From Candidatus Poribacteria bacterium (GTDB lineage: Bacteria > Poribacteria > WGA-4E > WGA-3G), in NCBI GenBank assembly GCA_026702755.1, contig JAPPBX010000046.1:1-39347 (forward strand): a stretch of DNA of 39,347 nt, given 5' to 3'. The notes beneath the pieces were generated by a model. The model ran no database searches. It worked only from the letters and a program-made list of their open reading frames with translations, and had not been told where the DNA came from. Each line of letters starts with the position of its first letter. The stretch's first letter is position 1. The translations under genes and the position numbers were made by a program. Positions 24,886 to 31,145 of this stretch are shown piece after piece.

Positions 24886-27291
24886 TCACTCGGAAGTGTC
24901 AGATGACGGGGTCGCTTCGGTATCCTGCTGAGATGGCGCGCTTTTTGCACAACGAAATCCGAGCCAACTGTTTGTGTTTGTAGGTGTATCATCGCCGCGA
25001 CTTGCCGCATGCGCAGGTCGAGGCGTATTCCAAGAACCGCCGCGTGACACGCGCTCCGTTTGAACGCTCATGAAGTTTTCCATCAATGCTTTAGTATCGG
25101 GAACACCAGCGATCGGATTTTTCTTCGGAGAATTTTTATAAAAGTTTTTGTCAAACTGATCCAAGCAGTGTTCCCATACGTTCCCACCCATGTCGTGCAG
25201 ACCGTATCCGTTCGGTAAATAACTGCCGACAGGCGAGGTATTTCGTCCATAATACCCGTAGTTTGCTTTACCTGGGTCCCGAGAATCTCCCCATACATAG
25301 CGTTCACCTGCTGTGCCACCGCGTGCCGCTTTCTCCCATTCCGCCTCTGTGGGAAGCCGCTTGCCTTTCCACTTTGCATAAGCCATCGCTGCGTACCAGC
25401 TCACATAGACGACAGGGTGATTGGCTTTTCCATCGGGATAGTCGTTCTCAGTCCAATGTTTTAAGTAGTTACCGTTATGGTATTCGCTGGGGATATTTTT
25501 TTTGCTCCACTCTGGGTTGGCATCAACGAACGCCTTGAATTGGGCATTTGTTACCTCATAAGGATCAATATAAAACGCGTCAAGATAGACGGTGTGTATA
25601 GGTGTCGCGTACATGCATTCCTTGCTACCCATCTGAAACTCGCCTGCAGGAATTTTCACCATTTCGGTAGCAGCTTTTTCCAATTCCTGTGCCGATAAAG
25701 TGCCGTGCCCTAAACATTGCATCGCTCGCGTGAAGTCTATTTCCGCTGCTTCACGTTGTCCAAGTCTCTCTTTTGTTTTCCCACGATTCTCATAGGCTTC
25801 GGTGAAATCAGATTTGTATTCTATGGCTGTATTAAAATTTTCTATTGCGTTGTTATACTCACCAAGCACCTTTTTTGTAACACCACGAGTGTAATAGGCG
25901 AAAGCGTTATCTGGTTTTAGTTGAAGTGCTTTATCACTGTCCGCGATCGCTGCGTAATAGTGTTTCTGTGCTTCAGCGGCTTTTCGTCGTTCCATTTTTA
26001 GTTGCCCGAGAAGGTACTTCGTCCATCCGCGTCCATTGTAATTTGAGCTATCGTTCGGGTCTAACGTAATGGCTTTAATGTAGTCTTTTATCGCCGCTTG
26101 ATACTGTTTTTGGGCTTTGCTAAATTCTCCTTGTTTCATGTTCAATTGTCCAAGAAAGTGCTTCACCTGTCCGCGCCCGTTGTAATTCGTATTATCGTCT
26201 GAATCTAACTTGATGGCTGTGGTATAATCTTCTATCGCCGCTTGATACTGTTTTTGGGCTTCTGTTGTATTTCCTTGCTTGGCTTCATATTTACCATAGA
26301 GGGACCGCGCATATCCGCGCTCGTAGTAGTTTTCATCATCTTCAGAATCTAATTTGATGGCTTTGGTGTGGCTCCTTATCGCTGCTTGATGCTGTCTCCG
26401 AGCTTTAGCGATGTTCCTCTCGTATTTACCTATAGCTTCAGCGTAGTAGGACATTACATACCCGCGCACCCTGTAGGTGTAAGCAAACTCTGGATCCAAT
26501 TTAACGGATTTATTGAGTTCAAATATCGCCCCTCTATCGTCATTGTCAAAAAATTTGTGTTGTCCTCGAGCGTAATAGGTATAGGCACGTATACGTTTTT
26601 GCTTATACCACTTCGTCAACGGTTCAATTTGGTCGGATTGAGAGAGCAGTGTTTTAAGCGCGTCTGAAGGGACAGCGTAACTGTAGAAATCACTCACGCG
26701 GGAACTGATGCCGATGACTTCGCCTCTATCGTTTAGGATAGGACCGCCGCTGTTCCCTTTGACAGTGTCTGCTGTTGTTTGTATCCATATATCTTTATAT
26801 CGGTTGTTCCATACGATTCCCTCCGTTAGTTTGTATTCTCCACCGCCGGGATAGCCTATGGCGTAAACAGTCTCACCTTTCGTAACGGTGCCACTATTAC
26901 CGAGAGGGAGCGGTACACCTTCGCCTGCGATTTTTAAAATGACGAGATCGTTTTCTATATCAAATGCAGCGACCCCTTCAACAGCCCAGATTGTTTCATT
27001 GTCGCTGAGTTTTACGAAGATAACACCGGGACTTGAAACAACGTGCATGTTCGTCACAATCTTATCAGGCTCCACAAAAAAACCACTCCCTGCCCCGATG
27101 CTCCACCAATTTATACTTTTGGGCAGACTACCACTTGTAATACGGACTACAGAAGCTTTTCCTTTCTCGGTTGCGATGTCTGCCGTCAGCGTTGGAAGTT
27201 TTTCCGAAAGGTTTTGCTGGGGTGTCCGCGCCCCTAAAAGGAAAATCACTAAAGCGAAAAGACAGAATAAACATTTTTTGTTATATTTCAT
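24886..27291 (-). CDS. Trypsin-like (HtrA-type) protease - TPR - FGE-sulfatase fusion
   Basis: I chose the ATG at 27291 (801 residues, M-K-Y-N-K-K-C-L-F...), which gives a clean signal peptide. The frame extends to a GTG at 27426 with 45 extra residues of poor character. Order of domains: serine protease (about 30-215) with triad His83 (TNMHVV), Asp115 (DIENDLVIL) and Ser181 (VKGNSGGPI); about six TPR units (about 235-560), some stretched with repeats such as Q-K-Q-Y-Q-A-A-I-x-D-Y; and a C-terminal formylglycine-generating-enzyme/SUMF1-like domain (MVKIPAGEFQMGS, DPYEVTNAQFKAF, RLPTEAEWEKAARGG, MGGNVWEHCLD, SRGGSWNTPRP, LGFRCAKS). The protein should be exported. FGE-like domains of this kind often bind rather than oxidise; the pairing suggests a multidomain surface or periplasmic factor. 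Confidence 0.88.
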   Translation of the reverse strand: MKYNKKCLFCLFALVIFLLGARTPQQNLSEKLPTLTADIATEKGKASVVRITSGSLPKSINWWSIGAGSGFFVEPDKIVTNMHVVSSPGVIFVKLSDNETIWAVEGVAAFDIENDLVILKIAGEGVPLPLGNSGTVTKGETVYAIGYPGGGEYKLTEGIVWNNRYKDIWIQTTADTVKGNSGGPILNDRGEVIGISSRVSDFYSYAVPSDALKTLLSQSDQIEPLTKWYKQKRIRAYTYYARGQHKFFDNDDRGAIFELNKSVKLDPEFAYTYRVRGYVMSYYAEAIGKYERNIAKARRQHQAAIRSHTKAIKLDSEDDENYYERGYARSLYGKYEAKQGNTTEAQKQYQAAIEDYTTAIKLDSDDNTNYNGRGQVKHFLGQLNMKQGEFSKAQKQYQAAIKDYIKAITLDPNDSSNYNGRGWTKYLLGQLKMERRKAAEAQKHYYAAIADSDKALQLKPDNAFAYYTRGVTKKVLGEYNNAIENFNTAIEYKSDFTEAYENRGKTKERLGQREAAEIDFTRAMQCLGHGTLSAQELEKAATEMVKIPAGEFQMGSKECMYATPIHTVYLDAFYIDPYEVTNAQFKAFVDANPEWSKKNIPSEYHNGNYLKHWTENDYPDGKANHPVVYVSWYAAMAYAKWKGKRLPTEAEWEKAARGGTAGERYVWGDSRDPGKANYGYYGRNTSPVGSYLPNGYGLHDMGGNVWEHCLDQFDKNFYKNSPKKNPIAGVPDTKALMENFMSVQTERVSRGGSWNTPRPAHAASRGDDTPTNTNSWLGFRCAKSAPSQQDTEATPSSDTSE

Positions 27292-27527
27292 GGGTGATAT
27301 ATCTCCGACCTCATTAGAAAATTTCAGCATCCGCTGAAAAATTTGATTTGTTCTAATACCTCTCGATATGCAAGGTTTCCTAACCTTGCCGGTCCATTTG
27401 GATATTTGCTGGTTTCCGTGTTTCACTGTAGGTTATACACCTTTTGTTTCACTGGGATTCGGGAATCTTCGGTAAAAATTCTCTTATATCGGTTATGCCC
27501 TGAATCTCGCGCTTTGTGAAGAAATAT

Positions 27528-27556
27528 TTGACATCCCCCGTGGAATATGGTATCAT
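27528..27556 (+). promoter_or_regulatory. Sigma-70 promoter for the ileS leader
   Basis: TTGACA (27528-27533), a 17-bp spacer and TATCAT (27551-27556) form a near-consensus promoter. Transcription would start near 27563, about 90 nt before the leader peptide ATG, and read through the attenuator into ileS. Confidence 0.75.
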
Positions 27557-27651
27557 AATTAGCAAGTACACGTTCTAAAACAAGTCTTCGCTAAGTCTGA
27601 CGAGGCTTACGTAGCATTTACAACGACCTCATACACCGTTCAAACCATATA

Positions 27652-27804
27652 ATGGACAGAAAATCGCTTACCACACTGACATCGCAAGATAAGGAATTTG
27701 TGCGCTACAACACCCCAAATCAAGACTGCCTTCGTGCTGTCACGGGTTTGCGCGCCATATCCATTATTATTATTATTGCTATTCGTCGTGCTGTGGTGGG
27801 TTAA
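27652..27804 (+). CDS. ileS leader peptide (isoleucine-rich)
   Basis: This 50-codon frame starts at ATG 27652 and ends at TAA 27802-27804. Its final part reads ATA TCC (ATT)x5 GCT ATT CGT CGT GCT GTG GTG GGT TAA, giving I-S-I-I-I-I-I-A-I-R-R-A-V-V-G. Seven of nine consecutive codons are Ile. It ends 33 nt before a strong terminator and lies upstream of isoleucyl-tRNA synthetase, as in classical leader-peptide attenuation. The ATG has no clear ribosome site. A GTG at 27700 preceded by AAGGA would give a 34-residue peptide and may be the real start. The product itself probably has no function; its translation is the sensor. Confidence 0.75.
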   Translation: MDRKSLTTLTSQDKEFVRYNTPNQDCLRAVTGLRAISIIIIIAIRRAVVG

Positions 27805-27844
27805 TCACGAACAGATAAGAAATTTCTATTACAACGCCCATCAC
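27793..27844 (+). promoter_or_regulatory. Antiterminator pairing in the ileS leader
   Basis: GTGGTGGG (27793-27800, the last Val-Val-Gly codons of the leader) can pair with CCCATCAC (27837-27844) over eight bases with one G-U. The second strand overlaps the 5' arm of the terminator (TCAC at 27841-27844), so the two structures exclude each other. A ribosome stalled at the Ile codons (27757-27783) leaves the first strand free; one that reaches the stop codon covers it. Confidence 0.65.
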
Positions 27845-27879
27845 TGAACAGACGATTTCAGTGAGGGTGTTTTTTTTTT
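27837..27879 (+). terminator. Rho-independent attenuator upstream of ileS
   Basis: TCACTGAA (27841-27848) and TTCAGTGA (27857-27864) form a perfect 8-bp stem with loop CAGACGAT. Flanking CCC/GGG can extend it around one bulged base. Ten T residues follow (27870-27879). It stands 120 bp before the ileS start, where it would stop transcription unless prevented. Confidence 0.9.
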
Positions 27880-27880
27880 A

Positions 27881-27920
27881 GAGTTTTCAGTTATCGGTTA
27901 TTGGTTTTCAGTTAAAGAGT
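27881..27920. repeat. Dispersed short repeat, copy 4
   Basis: Contains GTTTTCAGTTATCGGTTATT then GGTTTTCAGTTAA, in the opposite orientation to the copy at 3592-3629. It fills the space between the attenuator and ileS. Confidence 0.6.
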
Positions 27921-27998
27921 CACTCTGTCATTGCCGAATTAAATTTTTGACTTCACACTGAACACACAATTTAAGTTAGGATCATGAGGGAATTTCGT

Positions 27999-30900
27999 AT
28001 GTTTGGAGAAGTATCATCTCAATTCACGTTTGCTGAAAAGGAAAAACAGATCTTAGAGTTCTGGCGTGAAAATGACATCTTTCAGAAGAGTATGGAGATG
28101 TATAAAGACGCACCGTCGTTCGTTTTTCTGGAGGGACCGCCGTTTGCGAATGCACCTCCCGGTGTGCATCACGTCCTGGCACGCGTCATGAAAGATGCCG
28201 TCTGTCGCTACAAGACTATGACGGGGCATTACGTCCACCGTAAAGCGGGCTGGGATACGCACGGACTTCCGGTTGAATATCAGGTTGAAAAGCAGCTCAA
28301 CATTACAAACAAAGCAGAACTGGAAGCCTACGGCGTTCAAAACTTTATCGAAAAGTGTAAGGAAAACGTCTTCCAATACGAGCGGGATTGGCGGCAGATG
28401 ACGGAACGCATCGGATTCTGGGTCAACTTAGATGATGCCTATATCACGTTGTCCAACGATTACATTGAAAGTGTCTGGTGGGTGCTCCGACAAGCGTGGG
28501 ACAAGGAACTGCTCTATCAAGGACATAAGGTGCAGCCGTATTGCTATCGGTGCGGTACAACCTTAGCAAGCCACGAAGTCGCGCTCGGTTACCAAGAGGT
28601 TGCCGATCCGTCTATCTTTGTCCGCTTCCGGCTGAAACACAAGGAGAATGCTTACCTGCTCGTCTGGACGACGACACCATGGACCTTACCTTCTAACGTG
28701 GCTGTTGCTGTGGGTGAGGATTACGATTACGTTGCCGTTGAAGAAGGTAACGGACAGCACCTCATCCTCGCAAAGGAATGCATACCGAGCTTATTCGGCG
28801 ATGAATCTCCGCAGGTTGTCGAAAACTATAAGGGGAGCGACCTCCAAGCGTGGGAATACGAACCCTTGTTTGATAGCGGGCAGCATCGGGAAAAATCACA
28901 CTACATTGTCACTGGTGATTTTGTAACGACGACAGAGGGAAGCGGTTTGGTTCACATCGCCCCCGCCTTCGGACAAGATGACTACGAGATCGGGCAAAAA
29001 TACAACCTGCCGCTCGTGCAACTGGTAGGTCCCGATGGCAAATTTGTTTCAGCGGTGAAAGAGCCGTGGGCAGGCGAATACGTCAAGGATGCTGATCCGA
29101 AAATCATCGAAAACTTGGATGGACGTGGACTGTTGTTCAAGGCTGCCGAATATACGCACCAATATCCGTTCTGTTGGCGGTGCGATACCCCGTTGCTCTA
29201 TTACGCACGCGAATCGTGGTTTATCCGAACGACCGCCATCCGAGAACAGATGCACCAGAATAATCAGCAAATCAACTGGTACCCGGAGCATATTAAAAAC
29301 GGACGCTTCGGCAATTGGCTGGAAAATAATATTGACTGGGGATTGAGCCGTGAACGTTATTGGGGAACACCCTTGCCGGTCTGGGTGTGTGACGACTGCG
29401 GGCATCAGCATTGTGTCGGAAGTATCGCCGAATTGAAAGAACTCGGTACGGATGTGCCGGATGATATTGAACTCCACCGTCCTTATGTGGACGACGTTGC
29501 TCTCGTCTGCAGCGAATGTAGCGGCACGATGTATCGTGTGGAAGACGTAATTGATTGCTGGTTTGACTCCGGTTGTGCGCACACAGCACAGTGGCACTAC
29601 CCCTTTGAAAACAAGGAGATGTTGGAGCAGGCGTATCCGGCAGATTTCATCTCTGAAGCCATCGATCAGACACGAGGATGGTTCTATAGCCTCTTGGCAA
29701 CCGGCACACTTCTCTATGATAAACCGGCTTACAAAAACTGCCTCTGCCTTGAACTCATTATGGGACCCGACGGTCAGAAGATGAGTAAGAGTCGGGGGAA
29801 TACGGTGGATCCGTGGACAATTCTCAACAAGCAAGGTGCGGATGCGATGCGCTGGTATATGTTCACCGCAACTACACCGTGGACACCACGCGCTTTCACA
29901 CTTGACGGCATTGACGAGGCGTTGAAAAAGTTCATGGGGACTCTCCAGAACGTTTATAGTTTCTTCGTTATGTATGCCAATTTAGAGCAGGTCGATGTCT
30001 TGCAAGATGTACCGCCTGTCTCGGAACGTTCCACAGTGGACAAATGGATCCTGTCGCGTCTCCACACCCTCATTGACAATGTGCGCGATGAGATGGAAAA
30101 TTACCATCTCACGAATGCCCCACGTGCCATCGAGGCGTTTGTGGACGACCTCAGCAACTGGTACGTCCGTCGTTCCCGCGACCGCTTCTGGGGCGCGGAA
30201 GCCGGACCCGACAAGCATGCCGCTTATGCCACGCTTTATGAAGTGCTTGTAACCATTGCGAAACTCTCCGCGCCTTTCGTTCCATTTTTGGCGGACGAAC
30301 TCTATCGCAATTTGGTATGTTCGCTGGATGTCGAGGCACCCCTGAGTGTTCATCTTGCGGAATATCCGGTTGCGGATGCCGCGCTCAGAGATGTTCAGTT
30401 GGAAACCGATATGGCTTTCACTCGCGATGTGATCAGCATGGGACACGCTGCACGCAACCGTTCCGGCATCAAGACGCGCCAACCCCTTGCGGAGCTTACG
30501 CTTGGTGGACTCTCCGAGGCAGAGAAAGCAACCGTTGAGCGTTTAGCGGAGCTCGTCCACGATGAACTCAATGTCAAAACGATCGGATTCACAGAGGACT
30601 TGGACGCTTTCGCGCAGGTGACGCTCAAACCCAACTTCAAGGTATTGGGACCCAAGTACGGTAAGGGCGTACAAGCCATCGCTAAAACACTCGCTGCTGG
30701 AGATGCAATAGCACTGAAGGCGGAGTTGGAAGCCGCTGGAAGCTTACAGGTTGAGGCATCGGGAGAGACGTATACCCTTGGGCAATCTGACGTTGAGGTC
30801 CAGACACAGAATCGGGAGGGGTTCTTTGTAGAGATGGATGCAAAGAAATTCGTTGCTTTGTCGACGGAATTGACGCACGAATTGACGCTTGAAGGCTTGG

Positions 30901-31145
30901 CGCGCGAGTTCGTCAATAAGATTCAGAATATGCGGAAGGAGGCTGATTTTAACGTCTCCGATCGGATCAAACTCAGCCTTGACACGACATCCCCACTTTT
31001 AGACGAGGCGTTTCAGGCGCATCAAGACTACATCCTCCGTGAAACGCTCACAACAGCGGTTGTAGACACGCCGGGTGAAAATGCCTTCATCCTCGCACAG
31101 AAACTCAACGGAGAACCCGCCACCTTGAGTGTTGAGCAGGTCTGA
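27999..31145 (+). CDS. ileS: Isoleucyl-tRNA synthetase
   Basis: This 1048-residue class I synthetase charges tRNA-Ile. I chose the ATG at 27999 because M-F-G-E-V-S matches the family N-terminus and GAGGG lies 8 nt upstream; an ATG at 27984 adds five residues. The catalytic Rossmann fold has GPPFANAPPGVHH at the HIGH position (GVHH, residues 55-58, instead of HxGH) and QKMSKSRGNTVDP (KMSKS at 594-598). RKAGWDTHGLPVE, the editing-domain phrase LVWTTTPWTLPSNVAV and DVIDCWFDSG are all typical. The extended C-terminal region and length fit the large (type 2, eukaryote-like) IleRS group, whose members tend to resist mupirocin. Expression appears governed by the leader attenuator at 27652-27879. Confidence 0.97.
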   Translation: MFGEVSSQFTFAEKEKQILEFWRENDIFQKSMEMYKDAPSFVFLEGPPFANAPPGVHHVLARVMKDAVCRYKTMTGHYVHRKAGWDTHGLPVEYQVEKQLNITNKAELEAYGVQNFIEKCKENVFQYERDWRQMTERIGFWVNLDDAYITLSNDYIESVWWVLRQAWDKELLYQGHKVQPYCYRCGTTLASHEVALGYQEVADPSIFVRFRLKHKENAYLLVWTTTPWTLPSNVAVAVGEDYDYVAVEEGNGQHLILAKECIPSLFGDESPQVVENYKGSDLQAWEYEPLFDSGQHREKSHYIVTGDFVTTTEGSGLVHIAPAFGQDDYEIGQKYNLPLVQLVGPDGKFVSAVKEPWAGEYVKDADPKIIENLDGRGLLFKAAEYTHQYPFCWRCDTPLLYYARESWFIRTTAIREQMHQNNQQINWYPEHIKNGRFGNWLENNIDWGLSRERYWGTPLPVWVCDDCGHQHCVGSIAELKELGTDVPDDIELHRPYVDDVALVCSECSGTMYRVEDVIDCWFDSGCAHTAQWHYPFENKEMLEQAYPADFISEAIDQTRGWFYSLLATGTLLYDKPAYKNCLCLELIMGPDGQKMSKSRGNTVDPWTILNKQGADAMRWYMFTATTPWTPRAFTLDGIDEALKKFMGTLQNVYSFFVMYANLEQVDVLQDVPPVSERSTVDKWILSRLHTLIDNVRDEMENYHLTNAPRAIEAFVDDLSNWYVRRSRDRFWGAEAGPDKHAAYATLYEVLVTIAKLSAPFVPFLADELYRNLVCSLDVEAPLSVHLAEYPVADAALRDVQLETDMAFTRDVISMGHAARNRSGIKTRQPLAELTLGGLSEAEKATVERLAELVHDELNVKTIGFTEDLDAFAQVTLKPNFKVLGPKYGKGVQAIAKTLAAGDAIALKAELEAAGSLQVEASGETYTLGQSDVEVQTQNREGFFVEMDAKKFVALSTELTHELTLEGLAREFVNKIQNMRKEADFNVSDRIKLSLDTTSPLLDEAFQAHQDYILRETLTTAVVDTPGENAFILAQKLNGEPATLSVEQV

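Follow-up and report, generated by a model that had tools for sequence, protein, structure and literature searches.

A probable attenuator upstream of ileS

The window, by which we mean the whole 39,347-nt stretch of DNA analysed, is contig 46 of a 5.8-Mb Poribacteria genome (G000). A tRNA-synt_1 match spans the forward-strand gene at 27984/27999-31145, identifying it as ileS, which encodes isoleucyl-tRNA synthetase. The annotated reading frame opens at 27984, whereas the start is likely the ATG at 27999 (gene 27999-31145), since the conserved beginning MFxEVS lies there, together with an AGG-type ribosome site. Upstream of the ileS region, a large protein is encoded on the minus strand (24886-27426); by eye, it combines a trypsin-like protease part with TPR repeats and a part like formylglycine-generating enzyme.

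An earlier note on this DNA had described a promoter, a 50-codon leader frame, a run of Ile codons, the segments GTGGTGGG and CCCATCAC, and ten T's ahead of ileS, and all are present where it placed them, on the forward strand. The promoter (27528-27556) is of the sigma-70 type, TTGACA-17-TATCAT with an extended -10, and matches 11/12 consensus bases. The leader open reading frame (27652-27804; ATG...GTG GTG GGT TAA) encodes MDRKSLTTLTSQDKEFVRYNTPNQDCLRAVTGLRAISIIIIIAIRRAVVG* in 50 codons, and the sequence at 27757-27783 has seven Ile codons in nine (ATA TCC ATT x5 GCT ATT). Overlapping the last leader codons is the antiterminator strand GUGGUGGGU (segment 2, 27793-27801, with GTGGTGGG at 27793-27800), which pairs with 27836-27844. 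That partner, GCCCAUCAC (segment 3, with CCCATCAC at 27837-27844), is identified by covariation as a shared strand, serving also as the terminator 5' arm. Terminator scanning and folding both find an intrinsic terminator hairpin with its ten T's (3:4) at 27833-27879, in which 27833-27839 and 27841-27848 pair with 27857-27871, A27840 is bulged, and the T-run occupies 27870-27879, between the leader frame and ileS. The earlier note was right that this hairpin exists, and placed its start too late: the stem begins at 27833 and is slightly longer.

By folding, the antiterminator duplex comes to -15.6 kcal/mol and the terminator to about -18 to -20 kcal/mol; having one strand in common, the two are mutually exclusive. 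A possible 1:2 protector hairpin (CUGU.GGUG.....CACGAACAG; 27790-27813) folds at -6.9 kcal/mol. The 101-nt attenuator RNA from 27780 to 27880 folds far better than its shuffles (z = -3.1).

The claim that no T-box precedes ileS also stands: RF00230 stays below threshold near the ileS of the window, though T-boxes occur elsewhere in the genome, and no Rfam leader or riboswitch matches at ileS even at E <= 1. One T-box precedes ilvB, for acetolactate synthase (specifier GTC, Val; G000:C95:65898-66190, L084), and another precedes pheS (specifier TTC, Phe; G000:C106:30468-30673, L085), the specifiers being assigned by our own reading of the Rfam alignment.

Conservation across Poribacteria

We gathered 73 ileS upstream regions from the phylum, two of them from one genome. 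An automatic scan for a terminator opposed by an upstream duplex, with a cutoff of -14 kcal/mol for that duplex, was positive in 65 of the 73, and three further regions (G039, G048 and G066a) show the attenuator parts by eye. Among the remaining five, the G055 region ends at a contig end, and G026, G002, G032 and G051 have no attenuator directly before ileS. For G002, an ileS-type leader is found on a different contig. G032 and G051 have neither leader nor terminator, and the promoter is kept close to ileS, only the attenuator being gone; these few genomes show that the attenuator is dispensable, a point against the attenuator reading. Matches to the same promoter type occur in nearly all f1 relatives and in most of f4, G051 and G032 among them. 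In 57 distinct relatives, every terminator lies below -16 kcal/mol.

Both exclusive pairings show covariation exceeding that of shuffles and slides. In a 57-sequence alignment, 92% of cells are paired for the antiterminator, against 29-65% for slides, and four of its pairs have changed on both sides; for the upper terminator stem the paired share is 99.7%, and the lower terminator stem has the exchanges CG/AT/TG and GC/GT/AT. The core varies so little that antiterminator covariation is confined to few column types. RNAalifold, given 42 f1 sequences, returned the antiterminator unprompted as the consensus structure. Strands 2, 3 and 4 are tied together by a joint replacement of G6-C86-G105 with A6-U86-A/G105, as an attenuator would predict. 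The 1:2 protector hairpin is paired in 96% of cells among 42 relatives, with modest covariation. The earlier note had proposed aligning the regions upstream of ileS, and would have given up the attenuator had relatives lacked the Ile run or the hairpins, or had neither pairing covaried; across the phylum, the run is kept, and so are the two hairpins, with compensatory changes.

Leader frame and isoleucine codons

Frame 0 of the leader is open in all 44 aligned relatives, and indels preserve it. Among 21 leaders that share one length, stops fall in the +1 frame of 13 and the +2 frame of all 21, and in frame 0 of none. Leader dN/dS is about 0.7, and change falls equally on all three codon positions. 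The open frame and these rates suggest that translation of the leader is kept while selection on its peptide sequence is not strong, as expected where only translation and the codons matter. A functional leader peptide was considered and rejected on the same rates. In family f1, the peptide terminus is IIIAIRRAVVG* in most genomes.

Most families of the phylum carry an Ile run in the ileS leader, with four to seven Ile in nine leader codons among 51 g1/g13 sequences. Random 69-nt stretches reach at least five Ile codons in nine in about 0.5% of cases and seven in 0.025%, in a background that includes the leaders themselves. Distant ileS leaders write Ile as ATT, ATC and ATA, which argues that Ile itself is kept, rather than a simple repeat. 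Families differ in the frame that runs through the core RNA motif (VVG, DGG or MVG), which argues that the core is selected as RNA. Since the motif frames and the Ile synonyms both vary, motif and Ile codons would each be maintained for their own reason. A point against the Ile reading is that in families f5 and f6 and genus g12 the Ile codons close to the ileS core number just one to three.

A shared core at other amino-acid genes

An exact-pattern search of G000 for the f1 motif hit ileS and one unrelated place only; such a pattern misses paralogs, so covariance models were needed. R1, a covariance model of the ileS core, matches at ileS in most genomes and at an unexpected second site in many; R2 is a wider model. 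Downstream genes were identified with NCBIfam and Pfam for representatives, and by sequence resemblance for the rest. Leu-rich leaders with the core precede leuS in G043, G031, G027, G036, G024 and G049, and Tyr-rich ones precede tyrS in G037, G027 and, in another class, G041. Tyr/Phe-rich leaders precede two DAHP synthase types (G024-G037, also genus g1), and Ile-rich leaders with the core precede the citramalate synthase gene cimA in G039, G042 and G037. There are also single weak cases, an Arg run before argD (23.1 bits) and a Met run before metG (22.3 bits). R2 reached at best 23 bits (E 0.014) in nine non-Poribacteria genomes, with no attenuator seen in the inspected stretches around those matches; at such a background, the argD and metG members are weak by score, resting on their codons.

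In the genome of the window, a divergent Tyr/Phe leader (GLYLYVYFYFYGNERW*) precedes a DAHP synthase gene; no leader of the attenuator type is seen by eye upstream of its valS, leuS, metG, thrS, serS or hisS, and its proS sits at a contig end. Elsewhere, a promoter immediately precedes tyrS in G063, and hisS of G028 (L172) has the core with no His run.

Both exclusive pairings hold, with covariation, across the mixed-gene family, and the leader codons are cognate to the controlled gene, as Ile is to ileS. In permutation tests taking in 35-38 family members, none of 50,000 label permutations reached the observed match of codons to gene with chosen frames (the leader peptides being hand-picked from ORF lists), and none of 100,000 did in a frame-free version that removes this choice.

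It is quite probable that these leaders form a homologous poribacterial attenuator family, whose core (RUGGUGGGC / GCCCAUCAUCG) was duplicated before ileS, cimA, leuS, tyrS and DAHP synthase genes, perhaps also argD and metG, and was re-specified by exchanging the leader codon run. Such a family would parallel that of the T-boxes, with the ribosome as reader, and would operate in cells that also use true T-boxes.

Proposed mechanism and alternatives

From comparative sequence evidence we conclude, with a probability of about 0.93, that a ribosome-mediated transcription attenuator controls ileS and belongs to a poribacterial family with a common RNA core. The attenuator first proposed in the earlier note is thus strongly supported, by conservation, by compensatory changes and by the absence of a T-box or other Rfam match. 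RNA polymerase would start from the promoter at 27528-27556 and a ribosome would begin the 50-codon leader. With ample Ile-tRNA, the ribosome should reach the stop codon at 27802 and cover GUGGUGGG (27793-27801); 27833-27848 could then pair with 27857-27871, forming the terminator, and transcripts would end at the T-run. With Ile-tRNA short, the ribosome would wait on the Ile codons at 27757-27775, its covered stretch ending before 27793, and the free GUGGUGGG could pair with GCCCAUCAC, block the terminator and let polymerase read into ileS, which would thus be induced. If there is no translation, the small 1:2 hairpin could hold GUGGUGGG, making termination the default. The ribosome footprint reaches some 15 nt downstream of the A site. 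A waiting ribosome would clear 27793 and one at the stop codon would cover 27793-27801, so the layout agrees with classical attenuation.

Terminators and ATT repeats are common, and the neighboring gene at 24886-27426 lies on the minus strand; the hairpin might then merely terminate an upstream or antisense transcript, with the Ile-rich frame a chance ATT repeat. We regard such a coincidence as very improbable, given a promoter directly upstream in the same direction, phylum-wide conservation of the leader frame, the mixed-synonym Ile codons and the competing pairing, and codons in the paralogous elements that match the downstream gene. Hardly any weight goes, either, to a switch that senses leucine, its leader being a Leu-rich peptide (a TTA run) in the +1 frame. 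That frame does read YPLLLLLLFVVLWW in this stretch, but it is the one interrupted in 13 of the 21 relatives where frame 0 is intact; distant relatives use ATC and ATA for Ile, their +1 frame is not Leu, and the true leuS members of the family carry Leu in the leader frame.

The core is conserved beyond the need of pairing and common to several genes, which would suit a trans-acting protein, or IleRS, that binds the GUGGUGGG/GCCCAUCA core and controls termination, the leader setting only translation coupling. A common protein ligand, however, leaves unexplained why the codons track gene identity, and we give this arrangement a chance only marginally above that of the two preceding ones. Three mutually pairing strands would alone slow sequence change, and recent duplication may suffice for the remaining identity of the core across genes.

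Relation to known systems

The attenuators of trp, his, leu, thr, ilvGMEDA, pheA and pheST in E. coli and Salmonella likewise have a leader frame with regulatory codons, an antiterminator competing with a terminator, and a T-run before the gene. The poribacterial element differs from them in controlling ileS, in lacking an Rfam leader match, and in having one core across different genes. Classical attenuators are usually regarded as independent inventions per operon. One RNA core at several amino-acid genes, with matching codons, would let the evolution of attenuator specificity be traced directly, as for T-boxes. T-box leaders also sense tRNA charging for ileS and amino-acid genes, reusing one architecture with altered specificity, but their specificity lies in a specifier loop that binds tRNA, whereas that of the poribacterial element would lie in codons read by the ribosome. 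The two types, leader peptides and T-boxes, appear to divide the work inside one genome, and an uncultured phylum adds ileS, tyrS, cimA and DAHP synthase to the genes that may be under leader-peptide control.

The earlier note knew of no described Ile leader for ileS. This needs softening, as an 'ileS leader CDS' (CCNA_03934), likewise a translated short ORF, is named in Caulobacter crescentus (PMC4117421), and such a leader is therefore not wholly unprecedented. In the available text of that paper it appears only as a negative-control construct, and codons, hairpins and regulation are not given. Classical attenuation has likewise been predicted for aminoacyl-tRNA synthetase genes, with candidate attenuators of leuS and trpS in Streptomyces (PMC1262725) and His leaders preceding hisS/hisZ in bacilli (PMC2965389); these are other genes in other phyla, and the available portions of the two papers describe no core common to several genes with swapped codons. 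Translational T-boxes are reported on ileS in Actinobacteria (PMC1262725). The open-access literature yielded no poribacterial attenuator and no common attenuator core with exchanged codons; subscription papers lay outside this scope, and priority is unproven.

Other observations on leaders and cores

Several peculiar loci were seen. (i) In f6, two ileS leaders, L028 (G039) and L167 (G042), keep the core and are rich in Phe/Tyr/Trp rather than Ile; in these genomes the Ile run is found at cimA (L179, L183). (ii) G026 has an Ile-containing leader with the core (L174, G026:C21:175096-175178) about 7.5 kb upstream of ileS and adjoining an integrase gene, which looks displaced. (iii) The f1 DAHP synthase leaders (L192-L201) have a Tyr/Phe run and a diverged core (AGGTGGTGA / TCACCACCC); L196 is the G000 member, on contig C96 with the gene at 127348. 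(iv) In genus g1 the core occurs a second time, ahead of a gene for a DUF5916/CBM9-like protein (G000:C49:19429-19530, which is L140:801-902; also L141-L144, L147, L148, L158 and L188), and the leader there begins like that of ileS (MFYQLLTTL); the Ile run is gone from this leader and no other codon run is evident.

The spacing from terminator to ileS ranges from 0 to >600 nt, with tandem repeats of ~140 nt extending it in G009. Repeat-like stretches (GTTATCAGTT, GGTTTTCAGTTA) lie in this interval in the window (27880-27925) and in the upstream regions L005, L013 and L034. The G066 genome bin, in which mixed strains are possible, has two ileS copies (G066:C84 and G066:C74), one with an internal stop, and an attenuator precedes each.
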